From Victivallales bacterium (GTDB taxonomy: Bacteria; Verrucomicrobiota; Lentisphaeria; Victivallales; SZUA-371), in contig JAFGXT010000124.1 in assembly GCA_016936495.1 (NCBI GenBank), forward strand, positions 1-34,088: DNA of 34,088 nt. Direction: 5' to 3'. Shown here piece after piece: positions 1 through 9,263 of this stretch. The notes below the pieces were generated by a model. That model was not told the origin of the DNA. It saw only the letters and a program-made list of their open reading frames with translations, and ran no database searches. The translations under genes were made by a program, and so were the position numbers. Position 1 is the first letter of the stretch; each line of letters opens with the position of its first letter.

Positions 1-772
1 ACATATTTTCGGATTTTTTTGCTCGTTCATGATCAATGGATTCAATTTCTTTGATGAACAGCGTTTTATTTCTTTTGAGAATATCGAGCAAAATTGATAG
101 AAAGCTCGGATTCCATATAGATATAAGAGCCAGATTACCAGCTGATACCAGATGGCGCATTGTATGCAGATAAAAATCATCAATTGTATCGGAAGCGGCA
201 ATATCTCCGGGAACCGCCATAACATATTTCATGGCATGGCGCATGATATAATTCAAATACACAGTATCATCCTGGAATCCAATTGGAATACCGCTGGTGG
301 TAAATCTTTTCTGATGCTTAACAGGAGAAATAGACCAATATGCGGATCCTTTCATCAGGCCCGGATTGTGAGTAAACATGGAAAATATCCATGGGGCAAT
401 ACCAGCTTGAAACTCTTGATGCAACGCTCGATTATATGGAATTAACTTATTGGTTGAACTGGTTCCGCTGGTTGGTTCAAAACACCAGGGATGTCCGGGA
501 AACAATACATCAGGTTTTCCAGCGGCAATCTCATCAATGTACGACTCAAAGTCCTGATATTCAGAAACGGGAACTCGTTCGCGAAAATCTTCCAGCGAAT
601 TGATTGAAGCAAAGTCATGCTTCCGTCCGAATTTTGTTTCACGGGCAGTCCTTACAAGTTTAAGCAATCGCTGCATCTGCGTCCGCTTCACATTGCGGAT
701 ACCACGCTTATATGCAATGTATCCGGGCAAAGTCGAACAGTACCACGCAAAATTCACCAGTAGTGTTTTCAT
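1..772 (-). CDS. GH3-family acyl-adenylating enzyme (partial, C-terminus beyond window)
   Basis: About 257 N-terminal residues are present; the frame is open to the left edge. Residues 99-113 read EPTSGTSSTNKLIPY, the Ser/Thr-rich ATP/AMP-binding motif of the ANL-like GH3 family (known from plant acyl acid-amido synthetases and bacterial relatives). The preceding stretch, with a basic RLLK..R.A.ETKFGRKHDF segment at about 35-54 and a FRERVPVSEYQDF segment at 63-75, is also typical. By family, it would activate a carboxylic acid as its adenylate and pass the acyl group to an amine or thiol. The start codon overlaps the stop of the upstream gene by one base (TGATG), so it is probably translationally coupled as the last visible gene of the operon promoted near 8790. 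Substrate unknown. Family call fairly sure; role inferred. Confidence 0.82.
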   Translation of the reverse strand, partial: MKTLLVNFAWYCSTLPGYIAYKRGIRNVKRTQMQRLLKLVRTARETKFGRKHDFASINSLEDFRERVPVSEYQDFESYIDEIAAGKPDVLFPGHPWCFEPTSGTSSTNKLIPYNRALHQEFQAGIAPWIFSMFTHNPGLMKGSAYWSISPVKHQKRFTTSGIPIGFQDDTVYLNYIMRHAMKYVMAVPGDIAASDTIDDFYLHTMRHLVSAGNLALISIWNPSFLSILLDILKRNKTLFIKEIESIDHERAKKSENM

Positions 773-1494
773 CACATTGCATCCAGCTCCTTACGCACCA
801 TCCGCCAGGACATGCGATGGAGATTTTCTATGCTCAGTTCCGTTAGACAAGCCAGTTGCGTACCGGTCTTCCAACATGGATTCATTGAGGCAAAAAAACG
901 GATATGCGGTTTCTGTAGTTCACGTGACGTAATATCGCCGATTCCGTCGCGTAACCAGTAGTCATTCGGGGTCGCTATTATTCCCGTTTCCGAATTAAAA
1001 TCATCGCCAAAACGTGACAAGGCAAGCGTGTTTAAGACTTCCGCTTCAAATGGAGGCGTAACCACATCTAAGGCTGGCCAGTAACGGCGAAAGTGAACTT
1101 GCAGATAACGGTAAGTACGATATCCTTTACAAATAATAAACCAGTACCAGCGAAATTGCGGTTGCTGAAGCACGCGATGATAGATGAAGGGCATGCACAT
1201 TCGTTCAAGCGAAAATAACTGTCGACAATGCTGCGTCACAATGGTATCACCGGAATAAAAAGCGCGAACAGCTACTCCGTTGACCTTGGCATGCATAACA
1301 GCCATAATGGAAAAACCGCCGAGGATGCCGTTTTCGTCGCGTAACAAAGCCACCCATTCTTTGTCGGACAAATCATGCTCAAATGAGCTACGTTCTACTC
1401 TGGAGAAATGCTCACACATCAATCGGTACATGCCTTCGCGCAACTCAGGAGTGAGCCGGTCTACGGGTATAACTTCTGCAGTCAGTTCATTCAT
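772..1494 (-). CDS. GNAT-like hypothetical protein
   Basis: About 240 aa with no strong family signature. The N-terminal half has the feel of a GNAT acyltransferase fold: an LREGMYRLMCEHF helix, then WVALLRDENGILGGFSIM, which looks like the beta strands before an acetyl-CoA site. A Trp/Tyr-rich centre (WYWFIICKGYRTYRYL) follows. I chose the ATG at 1492-1494 (MNELTAEV), which lies just after the upstream stop; an ATG at 1516-1518 would add 8 residues and overlap the upstream gene. No signal peptide or clear membrane helix. It sits between a double-GNAT gene and a GH3-type gene, so acyl transfer in the same pathway is plausible but inferred. It could equally be a structural protein of unknown fold. 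Confidence 0.7.
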   Translation of the reverse strand: MNELTAEVIPVDRLTPELREGMYRLMCEHFSRVERSSFEHDLSDKEWVALLRDENGILGGFSIMAVMHAKVNGVAVRAFYSGDTIVTQHCRQLFSLERMCMPFIYHRVLQQPQFRWYWFIICKGYRTYRYLQVHFRRYWPALDVVTPPFEAEVLNTLALSRFGDDFNSETGIIATPNDYWLRDGIGDITSRELQKPHIRFFASMNPCWKTGTQLACLTELSIENLHRMSWRMVRKELDAM

Positions 1495-1498
1495 ATTG

Positions 1499-2605
1499 TT
1501 ACAACATTCCCAATTCAAAATAATTTATTCGTCCATCTGGCTCTGGCAACGGTTTTTCCGGGTCAGGCCAGTAAACCTGGAAAATATTACTCTTCAAAGT
1601 CAGATGCCATGGTGTTGTAATCTCACGCAGTAACGGATCCTGACTATCGATTCCAATGGCAAGATACCCAGTTGCTTTCTTTTTTAGCTCATACATCGCA
1701 GCATCCAGCAAGGCACGAAATACTTTGCGACAATTATTCATAATAACAATGCAGGATGCCAATTTAACTTTTATCGGATTTTCCGGATCAGGCAACAAGT
1801 CCGTTTTGCAAATACAGTCAGAAAGCTTTTTAACAATTCCCATTCGTCCATGATAAGATCGGATTACAATATTCTTTTGTCGCGATTGATCCCATATTGC
1901 CAGTGCTCCAATAATCTGTCCGGCATCATCCCGGGCTATAAAAAAATTATCAATGCCGATGCCTTTTAAAGGTCCGGTTTCGCCTTCCAATTCCGCTCTT
2001 GAAACGACCGGGAAAAACTGCTTTTGGGAACCTTCGCGATGCAGAAAATCAAGTAATGTCGGAATGACCTCTATCGTTCCACGGGTTATGCTTATCCCAG
2101 AAGTCGCTACCGAACGTTTTCCGCTCCTGAAGATCGGCAACAGCAATGTATGATAAGTAGCAAGCAGCTGATAAACTGGAAAGCCCACACGTTCTTCGGT
2201 TAAAACAATGGCAGCTGCATTGTCAGCCATGATTGAACTGAGATAAAAAGGGACATTGAATTCAGTATTATGCAATTTCCGTAAAAACTGATACCCCCGG
2301 GCAAGTATCAATGATTTACGGTGAGCTTGAGAAATACGCAAATGACTCAGATAGCCGATCTCAAGCGGCAAACCATTAAAATAGACCTGACGCCGAGAGA
2401 TCACTCCAACGGCAATGATATTGCCGTTTCTTTCCGTCACCATGACGACAGGTTCACTGCCCTGTATTTCCAGCGCAGAAAAAAAAGATTGTTCGTAATC
2501 ATAGGTCAACGCCAACGCCCCATTCATTTCCGCTTCCCGGAGCAACTGTCGAATTGCCGAATCATCATCAGGAACGGCAAGTCTAAAACATAATTTTGAA
2601 TTCAT
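1499..2605 (-). CDS. Tandem GNAT-domain acyltransferase
   Basis: 368 aa, long enough for two GNAT folds. Domain one (about residues 6-150) starts with the typical FRLAVPDDDSAIRQLLREAE opening and contains IGYLSHLRISQAHRKSLILA, where the R..HR..G/A acetyl-CoA pyrophosphate loop is expected. Domain two (about 190-350) includes FFIARDDAGQIIGALAIWD and a later NCRKVFRALLDAAMYELKKK helix. GNAT enzymes move an acyl group from acyl-CoA or acyl carrier protein to an amine; tandem forms include aminoacyl-dependent transferases. Start ATG follows an AAGGA-type site 11 bases after the upstream radical SAM stop. Part of the same operon; the acceptor cannot be told from sequence. Confidence 0.78.
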   Translation of the reverse strand: MNSKLCFRLAVPDDDSAIRQLLREAEMNGALALTYDYEQSFFSALEIQGSEPVVMVTERNGNIIAVGVISRRQVYFNGLPLEIGYLSHLRISQAHRKSLILARGYQFLRKLHNTEFNVPFYLSSIMADNAAAIVLTEERVGFPVYQLLATYHTLLLPIFRSGKRSVATSGISITRGTIEVIPTLLDFLHREGSQKQFFPVVSRAELEGETGPLKGIGIDNFFIARDDAGQIIGALAIWDQSRQKNIVIRSYHGRMGIVKKLSDCICKTDLLPDPENPIKVKLASCIVIMNNCRKVFRALLDAAMYELKKKATGYLAIGIDSQDPLLREITTPWHLTLKSNIFQVYWPDPEKPLPEPDGRINYFELGML

Positions 2606-2616
2606 TACCTTGTTCC

Positions 2617-3948
2617 TTATGTTTCATCTCTGACTCCAAGCGGAATTCCGCGTTTGCTGGAAATCTCCCTATGCAATAACGCATTTACACTGAGATAGCG
2701 CCATAAATTCTTAAAACTTGAACAATTACAGCGAAAATCAATTGCTCGTTTCAGAATTGCACCAATGGAGAAAAATCTGCGCCTGGCCTGCAAACAATTA
2801 AGCTCAAGTTCCCGGGAGGTCATTCTCTGCGGCTTGACTGGAGACTGACCAAAATAAAAATCATCGTCCAGCCACCAGTGTTCGCTGAGCAACTCTCCAT
2901 TTTCTTTAAGTTCCCTGTAGAGCGGTGTACCTGGAAAGGCTACCAAATGATTAAAAGCCGCGATAAACATCTTTTCCCGCATGGCAAAACTTACGCTTGA
3001 ATCAAAACTATCGGGAGTATCATCCGGATATCCGAACATAAAAGTCCCATAAACAAAAATTCCGTTATTTCTTAGATTTTCAAGCACTTCAGTATATTCT
3101 TCAGCTTTATTGGCACTTTTATTCATGGCTCTCAAGTTGGCAGGATTAAGCGACTCAAATCCTATCAACAGGCCAAGACAACCGCTTTCTGCCATAAGCC
3201 GTACCAGTTCAGGATCTTTTAGCCCAGAGATTCCACACTGCGTTATCCATTTACAGCCAAGTGGTTTCACCGCACGGCAGAGTTCTTTTGTCCCTTCCTT
3301 ATTCCCGGCGAAATTATCATCGACAAAAAATATATATTTATGCCTGGCTTCCCTGATTTCTCGTACCACATCTTCAGGCGGACGCTGACGGTATGTAGAC
3401 TTATAAAATGCGGCAATGGAACAAAAACTACATTTCATCGGGCACCCTCGGCTGGTTTCAATCAAGGAAAGTGGCATGTAATTTTTTCCTTTGAAAATAT
3501 CACGCCGGATTTTCAAGTCTTTTAAATCACAGGGAGAAGCTGCCTTGTAGCGCATTTGAAGTTTGCCTGCAACAACATCGTTCAGGATATTTCCCCAGAT
3601 GCCTTCCGCTTCTCCAAGACAAATAGCATCGGCATGCTCCAAAGCCTCTTCAGGACACAATGTAGCATGATATCCTCCAAAAATAACCGGAATTTTTTTG
3701 CTTCGAAATTTTTCCGCAATTTGATAGCCACGCTTGGCGGTATAGGTTTCAAGCGAAATTCCCACCAGGTCTGCAGACTGGTTGTAATCGATTTTTTCCA
3801 CGCGGTCATCAAAAAATACCACTTCCCAGTTTTCGGGAGTCAATGCAGCCAGAATTCCCATTGCCAACGGTTCCTGCTGCCATGACCTGACAAACTTTTT
3901 ACCGGGTCGCCGTCCCATTGCAGGATATATCAAGATTAATTTTGGCAT
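2617..3948 (-). CDS. B12-binding-domain radical SAM enzyme (A)
   Basis: 443 aa. Residues 1-130 form a Rossmann-like cobalamin-binding domain (start PKLILIYPAMG; SADLVGISLETYT at 58-70; IPVIFGGYHATLCPEEAL at 86-103). No DxHxxG motif is seen, as is usual in class B radical SAM enzymes. Residues 160-380 are the radical SAM core with CPMKCSFC (Cys 169, 173, 176) binding the 4Fe-4S cluster, followed by IFFVDDNFAG and GLLIGFESLNP. The roughly 80-residue tail is rich in Arg/Phe, as in HpnJ/BchE-like proteins. Known relatives methylate unactivated carbons or carry out cyclisations and rearrangements. A very strong AAGGAGG site lies inside the end of the upstream gene, which it overlaps by 13 bases. 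Substrate unknown. Confidence 0.9.
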   Translation of the reverse strand: MPKLILIYPAMGRRPGKKFVRSWQQEPLAMGILAALTPENWEVVFFDDRVEKIDYNQSADLVGISLETYTAKRGYQIAEKFRSKKIPVIFGGYHATLCPEEALEHADAICLGEAEGIWGNILNDVVAGKLQMRYKAASPCDLKDLKIRRDIFKGKNYMPLSLIETSRGCPMKCSFCSIAAFYKSTYRQRPPEDVVREIREARHKYIFFVDDNFAGNKEGTKELCRAVKPLGCKWITQCGISGLKDPELVRLMAESGCLGLLIGFESLNPANLRAMNKSANKAEEYTEVLENLRNNGIFVYGTFMFGYPDDTPDSFDSSVSFAMREKMFIAAFNHLVAFPGTPLYRELKENGELLSEHWWLDDDFYFGQSPVKPQRMTSRELELNCLQARRRFFSIGAILKRAIDFRCNCSSFKNLWRYLSVNALLHREISSKRGIPLGVRDET

Positions 3949-5330
3949 GTCTGCTCCTCCTTGAAATTAGTGTTGTAGTATTCGGCTGGAGGTGCGACAC
4001 CGGGACAGTCTCGCGAATAAGGAGTATCAAATCTCGGTTCAGTATTGAGACGCTTTACGAAGATACGATAGGCAAGGTTACCGCAGAAATTTATAGCGCT
4101 ATTAATTCCGAAGCCCCGCATACGACCAAGTATATGCTGTAGTTTAAAGGTATCCTTATAAGCCTGCTTGAATCCGCTAAAAAGTTCATCCGGAGTCATC
4201 TTAGCCGGTTGTATAACTACATGCATAGTGTCGTAATCATTCCAGTTAAAACTGATAATCCGCTTTTCAGCCAACAGCCGCCGGAATAATCCGGTTCCAG
4301 GATATGGGGTGTAGATGGAATACCTCGGAATATCTATTTTAAGCTCACGCACCCGTTCAACAGTTTTGTTGAAAATATCATGATCATCATCGTCAAATCC
4401 GAAAACAAAACACCCTTGAACCGAGATTCCCAACGAGTGCATCGTCTCCATAACCTCATGGTAATTTACCGGCTTATTAAATCCTTTATGTATCTGTTTT
4501 AATACCGCCTCTTCGTTTGATTCAAAACCAAACAGCAGAAAGGAGCAACCGCTCTGAGACATCAGCGACAATAATTCCTGGTCTCTGATAATATCTACAG
4601 TCGCCAGACCTCCCCAGCGTTTTTTCAATGGGATCATAGCCTTAAACAACTCTTTTGCGTACTCCGGGTCTTCCGCGAGACTTACATCATTTAACGCAAT
4701 ATAACGTCCCGGTACCTTACGAATATCTCGCACGACATCTGCAATCGGACGCTTCAGGTATTTTGGCCAGACTGCCGGAACCGTACAAAAATCGCAGTTT
4801 CTGCGACACCCCCGAGTGGCATGCACCGCATAAGGAATCATGTAACCATGTTTTCGATGCAGGTCATGCCTCGGTAATGGAACATCAAGAAGCTCATCAC
4901 CGTCAATAGGCTGTTCACGATATACTTTGCGCATTATTCCGCGCATAAAATCCCGAACCAATTCCGGCCACGAATGTTCTCCGCGTCCAATCATAATTGC
5001 ATCAGCATGATTGATTGCTTCTCCAGGTAAAATGGTCACATGGACCCCGCCTAGAACTACCGGCGTACCGTTTTTTCGGTAGTGGTCGGCTATCTGGTAA
5101 GCACTCAAAGCACAACCGGTAATCACGCTGATACCAACCAGGTCAGCCGGATAATCCAGGGGGATATCTTCCACACTGCCGTCGATTAACTTGATATTAA
5201 TTCCGGGAATATCGGAAATCATTGCCGCCAATGTACAGATTGATAAAGGCATCTCACGCATTGAACGAACAAATCTACCGATACGAATCTTATGCATGTG
5301 GGCATCCGGCATAATCAGTAAAATCTTCAT
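3936..5330 (-). CDS. B12-binding-domain radical SAM enzyme (B)
   Basis: 464 aa, same architecture as its downstream neighbour: cobalamin-binding domain at 1-130 (ADLVGISVITGCALSAYQIA at 62-81; VVLGGVHVTILPGEA at 91-105), radical SAM core at 165-375 with CRRNCDFC (Cys 175, 179, 182), GFESNEEAVLKQIHKGFNK after the core strands, and a C-terminal tail of about 90 residues. The two proteins look like diverged paralogues and may act one after the other on the same molecule. The gene starts by ATGA overlap with the upstream radical SAM gene, with GGGAGG seven bases before the ATG. Class B enzymes include methyltransferases and the BchE oxidative cyclase; which chemistry applies here is not visible. 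Confidence 0.9.
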   Translation of the reverse strand: MKILLIMPDAHMHKIRIGRFVRSMREMPLSICTLAAMISDIPGINIKLIDGSVEDIPLDYPADLVGISVITGCALSAYQIADHYRKNGTPVVLGGVHVTILPGEAINHADAIMIGRGEHSWPELVRDFMRGIMRKVYREQPIDGDELLDVPLPRHDLHRKHGYMIPYAVHATRGCRRNCDFCTVPAVWPKYLKRPIADVVRDIRKVPGRYIALNDVSLAEDPEYAKELFKAMIPLKKRWGGLATVDIIRDQELLSLMSQSGCSFLLFGFESNEEAVLKQIHKGFNKPVNYHEVMETMHSLGISVQGCFVFGFDDDDHDIFNKTVERVRELKIDIPRYSIYTPYPGTGLFRRLLAEKRIISFNWNDYDTMHVVIQPAKMTPDELFSGFKQAYKDTFKLQHILGRMRGFGINSAINFCGNLAYRIFVKRLNTEPRFDTPYSRDCPGVAPPAEYYNTNFKEEQTCQN

Positions 5331-6472
5331 TTTTCAACCTCCCGTACTTTATCCGCTAGGCATAACGGTACCAGACGACCGTTTTTCACGGTCGCGTCTG
5401 GACAATTTCGACAATGAACAACCGTGCCGTTGTCAATAACCTCCGCGGGTTGCTGTAATAATATTCGCAACGCTCTCAGCTTTGCCTTACGGCGTAACGA
5501 ATAAGTCAGCAACTTAAGATTACCGAACAGGCAACCTCCACTGAAAGCATTCAACAGCAGTTGCATACGAAACTGCAGAGCATTTTGATGGGTGTAAAAA
5601 GGATAACGCCTCTTAAAACAATAATAGATCTGTAAGTAAATTTTTTCTATTAGCCCAGTATGGCAAGAAGCATAATATTTTTTCCCATCCGGCAAGTTCA
5701 CGACTCCAGTCAGGAATGACAACCAGCGAGTATCCATTTTATCTAAATTGGAACCGACCCGGGCAAAAGGCCTTAAGCGATAGTTTTTCTGAAACCATTT
5801 AACCACCGAAGCAATACATGGGACCTCGGATGATACTTTTCCTGAGCCGATTTGTCCACTCATTCCGGCAATAATATCACCTTCAACCCAGTCTATCTGC
5901 GAATTGTTCCGACACAGAGTTACCAGCAGATAAGTTATGCCGGGAATACTCACTACCAGATCTGCAAACTGCGGCAATTCCAGCTCATCGCAAGCGGTAA
6001 ATACCACTCCTGTCTCCATTCCGTAGGAACAAATCAGCCTGGTCTTTTGCTCTATCAATTTCCGGCAATCTTCAAATGACGACGAATCCGGCAAATCAGT
6101 ACGTTGTTGTGACGGCTCAATATGCAGAAAGATCAGATCAGCTCCGGCTGCGCTTAGTTTCATCGACATAGCATCATCCAGCAATAAACCGTTGGTAAAA
6201 ATCTCCACCGTTATACCGCGTTGTTTAATCATCTTAACTATTTCCGGCAATTGAGGATGAAGCATAACTTCCCCTCCGGCAAGAGCAAGAGAATCAATTC
6301 GACGCAATTTGATCATGATATCAAGTTCATCGCGAATTTCATCCAGAGTTTTATTATGCGGAGCAGCTTCGTTATAACAGGCTCTGCAGATAATATTACA
6401 ACCGCGATTAATATCAAGGACTCCGTGTGGGACTCTGTCGGCGCTCCAAGGAAGATGCCATGCGTTATTCAT
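5327..6472 (-). CDS. Radical SAM enzyme with C-terminal Cys motif
   Basis: 381 aa with the start set at 6472: a perfect AGGAGG lies six bases upstream of this ATG, inside the end of the preceding gene. A longer reading from 6583 would overlap that gene by over 100 bases and has no conserved sequence. CNIICRAC (Cys 25, 29, 32) is the CxxxCxxC cluster motif very near the N-terminus, followed by ALAGGEVMLHPQLPE (the GGE SAM-binding motif) and TVEIFTNGLLLD. The tail has Cys 354, 357 and 371 (HCRNCPD ... LC), which may hold an auxiliary cluster in the manner of short SPASM/twitch domains. No B12 domain. First of three consecutive radical SAM genes; downstream overlap is ATGA. Confidence 0.88.
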   Translation of the reverse strand: MNNAWHLPWSADRVPHGVLDINRGCNIICRACYNEAAPHNKTLDEIRDELDIMIKLRRIDSLALAGGEVMLHPQLPEIVKMIKQRGITVEIFTNGLLLDDAMSMKLSAAGADLIFLHIEPSQQRTDLPDSSSFEDCRKLIEQKTRLICSYGMETGVVFTACDELELPQFADLVVSIPGITYLLVTLCRNNSQIDWVEGDIIAGMSGQIGSGKVSSEVPCIASVVKWFQKNYRLRPFARVGSNLDKMDTRWLSFLTGVVNLPDGKKYYASCHTGLIEKIYLQIYYCFKRRYPFYTHQNALQFRMQLLLNAFSGGCLFGNLKLLTYSLRRKAKLRALRILLQQPAEVIDNGTVVHCRNCPDATVKNGRLVPLCLADKVREVEK

Positions 6473-7427
6473 TAGCCACCTCCTGTCGTGATTGATTCTG
6501 GGGGAAACGCAAAAGCGTTGCCCCTCGATGAAAGAATTCCGAAGAAAATCCCATTTTCTGAAGAAAAAGGTAGTGCCGGTCAAAAGGATTTTTTACAGCG
6601 GTCAATTCTTTGACCTGATTCCAACCCAAACGAAATAAACCGCTCCACAACCATGGTTTCATTGGCAGATCAGATGCATATAAAACTTTGTCTTGCAGCC
6701 TGGAATCATCCAGCAGAATTTCGAGGTATTTTATTCTGGTCGGTAGAATAAATGCGCTGGTATCGCCATAAAAATTCTCATATTCCAGTGCCATTTTACG
6801 CCAATATTTAAAGTAGCATTTTTCATGCAGGAACATTCTTGCTCCGCAATGTGCGCCGATAACCGTAACCCCTTTATTCAGCGCAGGAATCAGTCTTAAC
6901 GGATCATTGAGACGATTGTTTTGATGTGGCATAAAATGTTCGTTTCCAGTATGGCACAACAACGGAAGGCGATAATGAGCCATCATTTCGTAAAAAGGTA
7001 TACAGCGACTATCTGCCGGATCGATATTCTGAACCGAAGGTAACCATTTCACCAGACATGCTCCGGCCTTTACCGCATTCTCCAGCTCAAATATAGCATT
7101 TTCTCGATACGGGTTTATACTGGTACCAAACAATACCTTGGAATGGTTTTCTGCCAATCCGGCGACATATTCATTTCTGACTTTAAAAATATCCCGGTCA
7201 GTGATAACGTCATTTCTTCCGACCGGACCATCCATCGCCAGAAAAACCGCTTTGTCAATCATCCGACAAGAGTCAAGGGTTTCAGCCATTGCTTTCCCAT
7301 CATGCGAAATAAGATCGGATTTTTTGAAGATTAACCGTCCCCGCAAAGTTTGTCGAAGCCGTGCGGCACGCTCACTGCCTGCATGACTTGTAAGCTCTAT
7401 GGCGTGAACATGAATGTCACAAATCAT
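6465..7427 (-). CDS. Amidohydrolase-2 family TIM-barrel metal-dependent hydrolase
   Basis: 320 aa from the ATG at 7425-7427, which overlaps the upstream TAA by one base (TAATG). Metal-ligand pattern is complete: DIHVHA with His 6 and His 8, LLCHTGNEH with His 159, IGAHCGAR with His 193, and YASDLPMKP with Asp 253. This matches the amidohydrolase-2 (PF04909-type) group, whose members hydrolyse amides or lactones or decarboxylate aromatic acids. Lys 127 (CLVKWLP) also fits the barrel. No signal peptide, so cytoplasmic. It sits between a membrane acyltransferase and a radical SAM gene, which suggests a dedicated processing step rather than general catabolism. Reaction not assignable from sequence. 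Confidence 0.87.
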   Translation of the reverse strand: MICDIHVHAIELTSHAGSERAARLRQTLRGRLIFKKSDLISHDGKAMAETLDSCRMIDKAVFLAMDGPVGRNDVITDRDIFKVRNEYVAGLAENHSKVLFGTSINPYRENAIFELENAVKAGACLVKWLPSVQNIDPADSRCIPFYEMMAHYRLPLLCHTGNEHFMPHQNNRLNDPLRLIPALNKGVTVIGAHCGARMFLHEKCYFKYWRKMALEYENFYGDTSAFILPTRIKYLEILLDDSRLQDKVLYASDLPMKPWLWSGLFRLGWNQVKELTAVKNPFDRHYLFLQKMGFSSEFFHRGATLLRFPQNQSRQEVANE

Positions 7428-8113
7428 TATTCTTTTGCACTCTTGTTGTCTACTCTTCTGCCATTTTCCCACCGAGTAAAGGGAGGAAACGACATCATTG
7501 CCCTTGTACATTCACCATCGGCAATTTCTGTCCCTGCTGTCAACAGTGAATAACCACCCACAATGACATTGTCCCCGATTATTATTGGGGACAGCAATAA
7601 TTCAAGATTGCCGTCATCACTCTTTACTAAGACATGACCGTTCAGCCGAACCCCAGCACCGAAAATAACGTTGTTACCAATTTTCAGGCAATGCCGATCA
7701 AGAATTTTTGTCCCTGGGGACCAGTAAGTTAAACGTCCGATTTCAGCCCCCCATAGTCGCAGCCAATGGCTGTATAGACCAGGGATCAACCGCAGCAATT
7801 CTTCAAGAGCAGGAAACCTGCAAAAGATTATTTGCAGATTAGTCATGGCCCACCATGTAAAATATTCTCGACTGCCTACTACTATTCGCTTTTTTTTGAT
7901 TGGTAGTATCATTTTGATAAGTCGTGCTGCAATCGGTGGAAAAAGGTAAATACAGCCAATTCCTGACACACATCGAATCCATCCCCTTTCCCAAGGATAC
8001 ACAAAGAGCAACACGACCGATAGTGCCAGAAAAAACTGAATACTATTCAGAAATAACATCAGCAAGCATTGCGTAAAACTGAAATCTGAAAATCTTACCA
8101 CATTGCCGTTCAT
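7427..8113 (-). CDS. Membrane-anchored hexapeptide-repeat acyltransferase
   Basis: 228 aa from the ATG at 8111-8113, overlapping the upstream TGA (ATGA). Two hydrophobic segments near the N-terminus (about residues 14-38 and 48-66) are followed by a basic stretch (LPIKKKRIVVG) and an amphipathic region with WWAMTNLQIIFCRFPALEEL. The C-terminal half, about 120-205, is a left-handed beta-helix of LbetaH/hexapeptide type: IGRLTYWSPG, LKIGNNVIFGAGVRLNGHV, PIIIGDNVIVGGYSLLTAGTEI. Such proteins transfer acetyl or longer acyl groups from CoA or ACP; the membrane anchor suggests a lipid or membrane-bound acceptor. Relation to the rest of the operon is inferred from coupling. Confidence 0.83.
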   Translation of the reverse strand: MNGNVVRFSDFSFTQCLLMLFLNSIQFFLALSVVLLFVYPWERGWIRCVSGIGCIYLFPPIAARLIKMILPIKKKRIVVGSREYFTWWAMTNLQIIFCRFPALEELLRLIPGLYSHWLRLWGAEIGRLTYWSPGTKILDRHCLKIGNNVIFGAGVRLNGHVLVKSDDGNLELLLSPIIIGDNVIVGGYSLLTAGTEIADGECTRAMMSFPPFTRWENGRRVDNKSAKE

Positions 8114-8730
8114 GCTGTTTTTGCCGTACATTTTCTTAATTTCCGAACAACAAACATCAATATCAGCGCGACAATCAATCCGGCAAGGAAACCGAGAATC
8201 AGTAGCCATACGCCTTGTTTGACCGCATGGTTCAATATCGGATTATTCAGAAAATCTACTCCTGCATGAGCTGCCGCTATCTTCCATTTTCCGTTTTGCT
8301 TGACAACCACAGCAGTCCAACGGGATTGCTGTACAATCTCACGTCCATCTTTCAGCTTATAAGTTTCCTGGTTAGTGCCATAGCAATATCCCGTATTGGC
8401 ATCAATAAACCGGGTTAGAATATCCGCACTAGGCTTACACTTCATGCTAATCAGCATAGAATCAGGACTTTTAAACATCAGCTGAAAGAATTTATCAACC
8501 TGAGATGCTGATGTCAAAGTTGTCTGATTGACAGTAGTGAAAGCAAAATCAGGAGTAAAGCAAGAGTTCAATAGCTTCATATCGCAATTGTTAATTGCCG
8601 TAATGACTGTATCTTTTAAGGTTCGCAAGGCTTGGTGCTTTACTTTACTGGGGTCATCTTCAGCTCGAAGGTTTCCACCAAACAGCCCTGCCAGCATTGT
8701 TATAAAAAAAATCCATCTATTTCTGCGCAT
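8110..8730 (-). CDS. Exported, C-terminally anchored NTF2/SnoaL-like protein
   Basis: 206 aa from the ATG at 8728-8730, which has AAGGA seven bases upstream; a longer reading would add 27 residues without a ribosome site. Residues 1-23 (MRRNRWIFFITMLAGLFGG, then an A-type cleavage at LRA) are a signal peptide. About 28-150 looks like a DUF4440/SnoaL-type NTF2 fold: TVITAINNCDMKLLNSCFTP, a Q.TLTSASQVDKFFQLMF helix, and a final SRWTAVVVKQNGKWKIAAAH strand pair. Residues about 172-197 form one transmembrane helix with an RKLRK tail, so the fold faces the periplasm. First gene of the nine-gene operon. The NTF2 fold serves as a small-ligand pocket or enzyme (isomerase, cyclase) in many pathways; activity here is unknown. 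Confidence 0.8.
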   Translation of the reverse strand: MRRNRWIFFITMLAGLFGGNLRAEDDPSKVKHQALRTLKDTVITAINNCDMKLLNSCFTPDFAFTTVNQTTLTSASQVDKFFQLMFKSPDSMLISMKCKPSADILTRFIDANTGYCYGTNQETYKLKDGREIVQQSRWTAVVVKQNGKWKIAAAHAGVDFLNNPILNHAVKQGVWLLILGFLAGLIVALILMFVVRKLRKCTAKTA

Positions 8731-8782
8731 TCTCACATCCTTTATTTTACTTACCCCAAAAAACAAATGATTAACCTTTCCA

Positions 8783-8811
8783 AATATATCAAACAAAAGG
8801 TAATTTTCCAA
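8783..8811 (-). promoter_or_regulatory. Sigma-70-like promoter of the nine-gene cluster
   Basis: Read on the minus strand: -35 TTGGAA (8806-8811), 17-base spacer, -10 TATATT (8783-8788). Start of transcription is expected near 8776, giving a leader of about 46 bases to the ATG at 8730. Five of the eight visible junctions in the operon overlap by 1 or 4 bases, one overlaps by 13, and the two in the GNAT part are tight fits (a 4-base and an 11-base gap), so this promoter may drive everything down to position 1. Confidence 0.5.
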
Positions 8812-9176: not shown

Positions 9177-9263
9177 TGGTGCCGAAGGTGGGATTCGAAC
9201 CCACACTCCCTTTCGAGAACTGCGACCTGAACGCAGCGCGTCTGCCAGCTCCGCCACTTCGGC
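9177..9263 (-). tRNA. tRNA-Leu (anticodon CAG), CCA encoded
   Basis: On the minus strand the acceptor 5' strand GCCGAAG (9257-9263) pairs with CTTCGGC (9181-9187), followed by discriminator A (9180) and an encoded CCA (9177-9179). The anticodon stem CTGCG/CGCAG holds the loop TTCAGGT, giving anticodon CAG, which reads CUG leucine codons. A long variable arm (TTCTCGAAAGGGAG region) marks a class II tRNA, as expected for Leu. The T arm has GGTTCGAATCC. All helices pair fully. Confidence 0.96.

Follow-up and report, generated by a model that had tools for sequence, protein, structure and literature searches.

This locus raises the question of whether nine closely packed genes, encoding three radical SAM enzymes and several putative acyl-transfer proteins, form a single system and, if so, what that system might make. 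The window that we analyzed (34,088 nucleotides) is the complete contig C341 of genome G000, a 401-contig, 4.5 Mb metagenome-assembled genome (MAG) related to Lentisphaeria, and the nine genes lie on its minus strand at 2–8811, transcribed from 8811 toward 2. That the nine-gene set is one inherited modular biosynthetic unit is well supported by its conservation, the adjacency of its genes and their congruent trees. At its center is a core trio composed of a tandem-GNAT-type protein, a GNAT-like protein and a GH3-type enzyme. From the predicted chemistry we infer, with somewhat less than even confidence, that the unit may assemble a modified fatty-amide-like product that is membrane-associated or exported.

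In order of transcription, the cluster encodes an NTF2/SnoaL-like (DUF4440) protein (8110–8730), a hexapeptide-repeat acyltransferase (7427–8113), an amidohydrolase-2 family metal hydrolase or decarboxylase (6465–7427), the radical SAM enzyme rSAM1 (5327–6472), the B12-binding radical SAM enzymes a (3936–5330) and b (2617–3948), the 368-residue tandem-GNAT-type protein (1499–2605), the 240-residue GNAT-like protein (772–1494) and the N-terminal 257 residues of a GH3 acyl acid amido synthetase (2–772). All nine frames exist at the places and in the order given in a preliminary description of this DNA, and Pfam backs its naming of the GH3, the three radical SAM, the Amidohydro_2, the Hexapep and the DUF4440/SnoaL proteins. 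Improved starts were assigned to the NTF2-like (8730, an ATG), hexapeptide (8113), amidohydrolase (7427), rSAM1 (6472), GNAT-like (1494) and GH3 (772) genes, with which the eight junctions measure, in order of transcription, −4, −1, −8, −4, −13, +11, +4 and −1 nt. Since all eight fall within −13 to +11 nt, co-transcription of the nine genes is very likely. The same tight junctions make plausible the single promoter that had been proposed for all of the genes, although promoter-like sites showed little excess over chance (29 observed versus 20.4 by chance, standard deviation 4.4). The cluster had also been said to run past the left edge of the window, and it does: that edge is the end of the contig and cuts GH3 after ~257 residues. 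As the GH3 proteins of related loci have ~460–600 residues and are usually encoded by the last core gene, the part beyond the edge is probably the remainder of GH3 and little more; neither a second GH3 of the cluster type nor the remaining GH3 piece was found in the same assembly.

Evidence that these genes belong together came from their distribution in other genomes. A tandem-GNAT profile built from two sequences identified 10 of 198 genomes of the class and 18 of 388 genomes of the phylum (~1 in 20), and a GNAT-like profile identified exactly the same 18 phylum genomes plus one. The hexapeptide profile matched seven of the 388, all of them within the 18 core-bearing genomes. Because core loci supplied the sequences for the GNAT-like and hexapeptide profiles, it is the lack of matches elsewhere that is informative in their counts. 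In locus maps, for which BLAST with the window and G008 proteins located partner genes and iterated hidden Markov models completed the maps, the trio was kept in ~25 related loci, mostly adjoining B12 radical SAM genes. Co-occurrence of the gene set in other genomes, set beforehand as a test by the preliminary description, was thereby found, and one distant genome, G305, has every one of the nine families, arranged almost as in the window (B12, NTF2, hexapeptide, amidohydrolase, rSAM1, three B12 radical SAM, tandem GNAT, a UbiE-like methyltransferase, GNAT-like, GH3). At least five of the nine families are present in each of G008, G350 and G413. The locus of G008, a Lentisphaeria MAG (WFSE01000100), carries GNAT-like, GH3, B12 enzyme a, B12 enzyme b, tandem GNAT, a metallo-beta-lactamase-fold gene and a further B12 radical SAM gene, with an amidohydrolase gene and an rSAM1 fused to a pyridoxal phosphate (PLP) enzyme on the opposite strand. 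In G001, which is of the same family as the window genome, rSAM1 and B12 enzymes a and b occur in the same order with 70–82% identity. In a scan of genome contigs, the sole matches were G008 itself and a weakly scoring radical SAM sequence of Planctomycetes. The trees of GH3, tandem GNAT, GNAT-like and B12 enzyme b agreed, with pairwise distances correlated at r = 0.70–0.88 (Mantel p ≤ 0.0005). It is hardly credible, then, that the window holds unrelated genes that are merely side by side. Many loci do lack the amidohydrolase, NTF2-like and hexapeptide genes, and elsewhere relatives of the amidohydrolase are found by themselves, but for the core such a chance arrangement is contradicted by adjacency in ~25 loci, by the identical sets of genomes and by the agreement among the trees.

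Beyond the phylum, distribution was assessed in plasmid and phage collections. A plasmid of Citrobacter portucalensis from the gut of a gull carries GNAT-like, GH3, two B12 radical SAM, tandem GNAT and two further radical SAM genes, as well as genes for a PAP2 phosphatase, an NTF2-like protein, a fifth radical SAM enzyme and a desaturase; the Citrobacter cluster genes were found in no Escherichia coli genome. Two other versions have the trio without radical SAM genes: in Burkholderia arboris it is accompanied by a Rieske-type gene, and in Acinetobacter baumannii (L077, 8365–16044) the GNAT-like, GH3 and tandem GNAT genes are interleaved with those of an EmrAB–TolC exporter. The GNAT-like relatives of Azospirillum do not have the other cluster genes alongside. 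Enzymes dependent on oxygen recur near the trio. In G401 it is joined by two desaturase genes, an AurF-like gene and a Rieske gene; in G207 AurF-like and desaturase genes stand alongside two B12 radical SAM genes. Among the mapped loci, AurF-like oxygenase and fatty-acid desaturase genes adjoin the trio in L068 (3299–7085, with a Rieske gene also) and L074 (9803–11682). These neighbors suggest that oxygen-dependent chemistry has been added to, or has replaced, radical SAM chemistry.

Among the trio, GH3 is the member whose family is clearest. The window copy includes only the N-terminal domain, which matches Pfam GH3 at 134 bits and contains the nucleotide motif PTSGTSSTNKLIPY, while the full-length relative from G008 has all three Pfam GH3 domains (N-terminal, middle and C-terminal) above the cut-off. 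The family profile matched plant GH3 structures at 1e-34 across the alignment, and the nucleotide motif PTSG[ST]xxxxKLIPY is conserved. OlsH, a bacterial GH3-type enzyme, couples fatty acids to ornithine (PMC12493201). Membership of the OlsH family itself (NF052613, cut-off 620) was rejected, the truncated window GH3 scoring 50.2 bits and the full-length G008 GH3 38.4 bits. The two GNAT-type proteins are more distant from described families, and neither window protein is matched by any Pfam or NCBIfam model. Their earlier assignment to GNAT is modestly upheld for the 368-residue protein, as the Acetyltransf_1 model recognizes 5 of its 17 relatives (best E 5.8e-5), and fares worse for the 240-residue protein, for which 1 of 16 relatives has a Pfam acetyltransferase match and profile–profile comparison gave E ~4e-4 with a probability of only 24–35%. 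The GNAT-like family has conserved SGDT, KGxRTY and NPxxxxGxEL motifs, and one of its members has a weak WecD match. Sequence searches of the PDB gave nothing usable for either protein, and the predicted structures were too poor for the fold to be read (predicted local distance difference test scores of 34.5 for the tandem GNAT from a two-row alignment and 37.0 for the GNAT-like protein from a single sequence).

The three radical SAM enzymes are assigned to their superfamily by Pfam and score far below the cut-offs of curated equivalogs. rSAM1 matches Pfam Radical_SAM and has a CX3CX2C motif, and in its alignment C25, C29, C32, C354, C357 and C371 are invariant; it has no SPASM match in Pfam, and an invariant CxxC...C lies near its C-terminus. 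Its best solved relative is a tetraether synthase (7tol, 61 bits), although membership of the Tes tetraether synthases (NF045702, cut-off 450) was rejected at 40 bits. In G008 (L027, 9476–11707), the PLP-dependent partner to which rSAM1 is fused is of the D-cysteine desulfhydrase/1-aminocyclopropane-1-carboxylate (ACC) deaminase type. B12 enzymes a and b both match the Pfam B12-binding and Radical_SAM models, and their B12-binding domains (38.9 and 37.6 bits, above the Pfam cut-off of 32.1) place them among the B12-dependent radical SAM enzymes, in keeping with the retention of CX3CX2C in 50 of 50 B12 radical SAM relatives of the loci. Enzyme a is 80% identical to its counterpart in same-family G001 and 53% to that in G008, and enzyme b is 47% identical to that in G008. 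Candidate memberships of HpnJ, the ladderane-type radical SAM enzymes, BchE and HpnR were all rejected, as scores were far under the equivalog cut-offs (HpnJ 108 of 578; ladderane-type 91 of 360).

The nearest curated model of both B12 enzymes is nonetheless HpnJ (108 and 91.5 bits), and the best solved relatives of enzyme b are AprD4 (6fd2) and 9ccb. These matches bear on an unlikely alternative, the synthesis or decoration of an aminosugar or cyclitol-type molecule by the unit. Here the B12 enzymes would dehydrate, epimerise or contract a sugar ring in the manner of AprD4 and HpnJ, the GNATs and the hexapeptide enzyme would acylate amino or hydroxyl groups, and GH3 would attach an acid. Hexapeptide and GNAT folds often act on amino sugars, and the weak WecD match of one GNAT-like member points the same way. 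All of these scores, however, are well under the family cut-offs. Neither a glycosyltransferase gene nor a nucleotide-sugar gene was recognized in the conserved core, and the desaturase and PAP2 neighbors indicate lipids.

The three remaining proteins are less constant members of the unit. The NTF2-like protein (Pfam DUF4440, 34.5 bits) has a signal peptide and a C-terminal transmembrane helix (residues 204–222 of the 233-residue frame) and is predicted to be periplasmic and membrane-anchored; its relatives adjoin the core in L063, L068, L069 and L075. The hexapeptide protein (Pfam Hexapep, 28 bits) has two N-terminal hydrophobic segments in a transmembrane scan. Placement of the third protein in the amidohydrolase superfamily, matched by Pfam Amidohydro_2, is confirmed by H6 and H8 (HxH), H159, H193 and D253, the last three of which are invariant in the alignment, and relatives adjoin the core in L027, L041, L063, L070 and L071. 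Amidohydrolases of the same subfamily also occur alone, without the cluster, in many Verrucomicrobiota (G204, G227, G256 and others), where they give no functional hint. The amidohydrolase and the radical SAM enzymes, which might cleave C–C or C–N bonds, could also serve a catabolic or salvage operon that degrades an unusual amide or lipid, and many Lentisphaeria break down complex substrates. We consider this very unlikely, as GH3 spends ATP on amide formation, two GNAT-type proteins and a hexapeptide acyltransferase are of anabolic types, and the set has no uptake transporter while the Acinetobacter version has an exporter.

Assembly of a fatty-amide-like product could proceed as follows. 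GH3 would use ATP to activate a carboxylic acid (probably a fatty or a short acyl acid), and an acyl-amide scaffold would be assembled jointly by GH3 and the two GNAT-type proteins. The amidohydrolase and rSAM1 may prepare or trim a building block. The two B12 radical SAM enzymes would methylate, cyclise or otherwise activate unactivated C–H carbons, and some lineages would add or substitute oxygen-dependent enzymes of the AurF, Rieske and desaturase types. In late steps the membrane hexapeptide protein may carry out an additional O-acylation, and its periplasmic NTF2-like partner may bind or process the product, which would end as a membrane-associated or exported lipid-like amide. A lipid direction is favored because of the OlsH precedent (PMC12493201), the closeness of rSAM1 to the tetraether synthase 7tol among solved structures, and the recurrence across loci of PAP2 phosphatases, of fatty-acid desaturases and of membrane parts. 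The exporter genes beside the trio in Acinetobacter also fit an exported product. Several observations weigh against this account. The window itself contains no PAP2 or desaturase gene, the core yielded no identifiable gene for an acyl carrier, a ketosynthase or lipid synthesis, and rSAM1 resembles tetraether synthase over its radical SAM core only. Assignment of the 240-residue protein to GNAT is weak, and in alignments read by eye the usual (R/Q)xxGx(G/A) coenzyme A (CoA) loop is missing from both GNAT-type families, so acyl-CoA may not be their donor. In addition, G207 holds both B12 radical SAM and oxygen-dependent enzymes, such that no clean swap of one for the other is seen.

The surroundings of the cluster bear on its possible mobility. 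An ordinary class II tRNA-Leu(CAG) gene (9177–9263, minus strand) lies with its 3' end toward the cluster, and at it the G+C content steps from 43.5% inside the cluster to 48.6% outside. The same arrangement occurs in G305 (L063) with tRNA-Leu(CAA) and 48.6% versus 55.7% G+C, while the other loci show no consistent difference. The G+C step at tRNA-Leu, the sparse distribution and the plasmid copy suggest that the cluster was spread by horizontal transfer. The tRNA-Leu(CAG) site is a possible boundary of an island targeted to tRNA-Leu, unproven because no second copy of the tRNA-Leu 3' end was found, nor was an integrase. In G382 and G417, three tandem tRNA genes with leucine anticodons (CAG, CAA and GAG) occur just downstream of GH3 (L072, 511–748; L073, 12831–12908); at 77–79 nt and without a long variable arm, these are not expected to be normal leucyl-tRNAs. 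The remainder of the contig (9449–34088) holds apparent housekeeping and carbohydrate genes, including RecJ, QueC/QueE-like, two Band-7, lactate racemase-like, photolyase-like, ROK, glycosyltransferase family 9, rhamnosidase and beta-galactosidase genes.

Neighboring tRNA-Leu genes in the window and G305, the leucine-anticodon tRNAs of G382 and G417 and the missing CoA loop of the GNAT-type proteins could all be accommodated by peptide-like synthesis from aminoacyl-tRNA, with the tandem GNAT acting like FemX and the radical SAM enzymes modifying a small peptide. This is improbable: most loci have no adjacent tRNA gene, that of the window is an ordinary tRNA-Leu of a kind that frequently serves as an island site, the tandem GNAT family gave no FemAB match, and no precursor peptide was seen, small peptides not having been systematically searched for.

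Among the nine proteins, Pfam and NCBIfam revealed no class-defining enzyme or precursor of polyketides, nonribosomal peptides, terpenes or ribosomally synthesized and post-translationally modified peptides; the preliminary description had named no polyketide, nonribosomal peptide, terpene or obvious precursor-peptide gene. Its suggestion that the scaffold may be a lipid, a small acid or an amino-acid derivative is conjectural. Its claim that the set matches no characterized pathway held, since no scanned enzyme reached an NCBIfam equivalog cut-off and no description of the gene set was found in the open-access full-text literature, a limited sample. The unit is thus conserved but patchy in its distribution, and it combines several radical SAM enzymes of unassigned reaction with two families without a Pfam or NCBIfam model. 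Tentatively, and with the balance tilted toward doubt, it may represent a new class of biosynthetic gene cluster in Verrucomicrobiota and some Proteobacteria. A trio-built scaffold would be tailored by B12 radical SAM enzymes in certain lineages and by diiron, Rieske and desaturase enzymes elsewhere, to give a new family of acyl amides that are linked to the membrane or exported. Demonstration of a new scaffold would argue strongly for a new class. If the product is a new lipid or signaling amide, some of the chemistry of Verrucomicrobiota that lacks an assignment would be explained, and radical and oxygen-dependent modification could be compared on perhaps one scaffold. The Citrobacter plasmid and the small Acinetobacter version offer tractable entry points.

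Several described systems resemble parts of the cluster. The core of rSAM1 weakly matches viperin-like prokaryotic radical SAM enzymes, but at 46 of 180 bits and without a nucleotide kinase or defense context. Tes/GDGT-MAS, the nearest solved relative of rSAM1, is like it a radical SAM enzyme with additional cysteines, yet the similarity is confined to the core and the score is 40 of 450 bits. The B12 enzymes have the N-terminal B12 domain and CX3CX2C core of HpnJ, the ladderane-type enzymes and BchE, but score 67–108 bits against cut-offs of 360–578, and the locus has no hopanoid or ladderane gene set. AprD4, a radical SAM diol dehydratase, is the nearest solved relative of B12 enzyme b, although the match (53 bits) covers only the radical SAM core and no AprD3-type partner was seen. 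The planctomycete ornithine-lipid pathway of OlsH and OlsI likewise has a GH3-like enzyme able to join a fatty acid and an amine using ATP. It differs in that the GH3 proteins of the window and of G008 are far under the OlsH cut-off (38–50 of 620 bits), that no OlsI-type gene was identified in the mapped loci and that the OlsH paper mentions no radical SAM or GNAT genes (PMC12493201). Finally, although the cluster GH3 is divergent in sequence from the plant enzymes JAR1, GH3.5 and GH3.15, it belongs to a common fold family with them over most of its length and retains their nucleotide motif.

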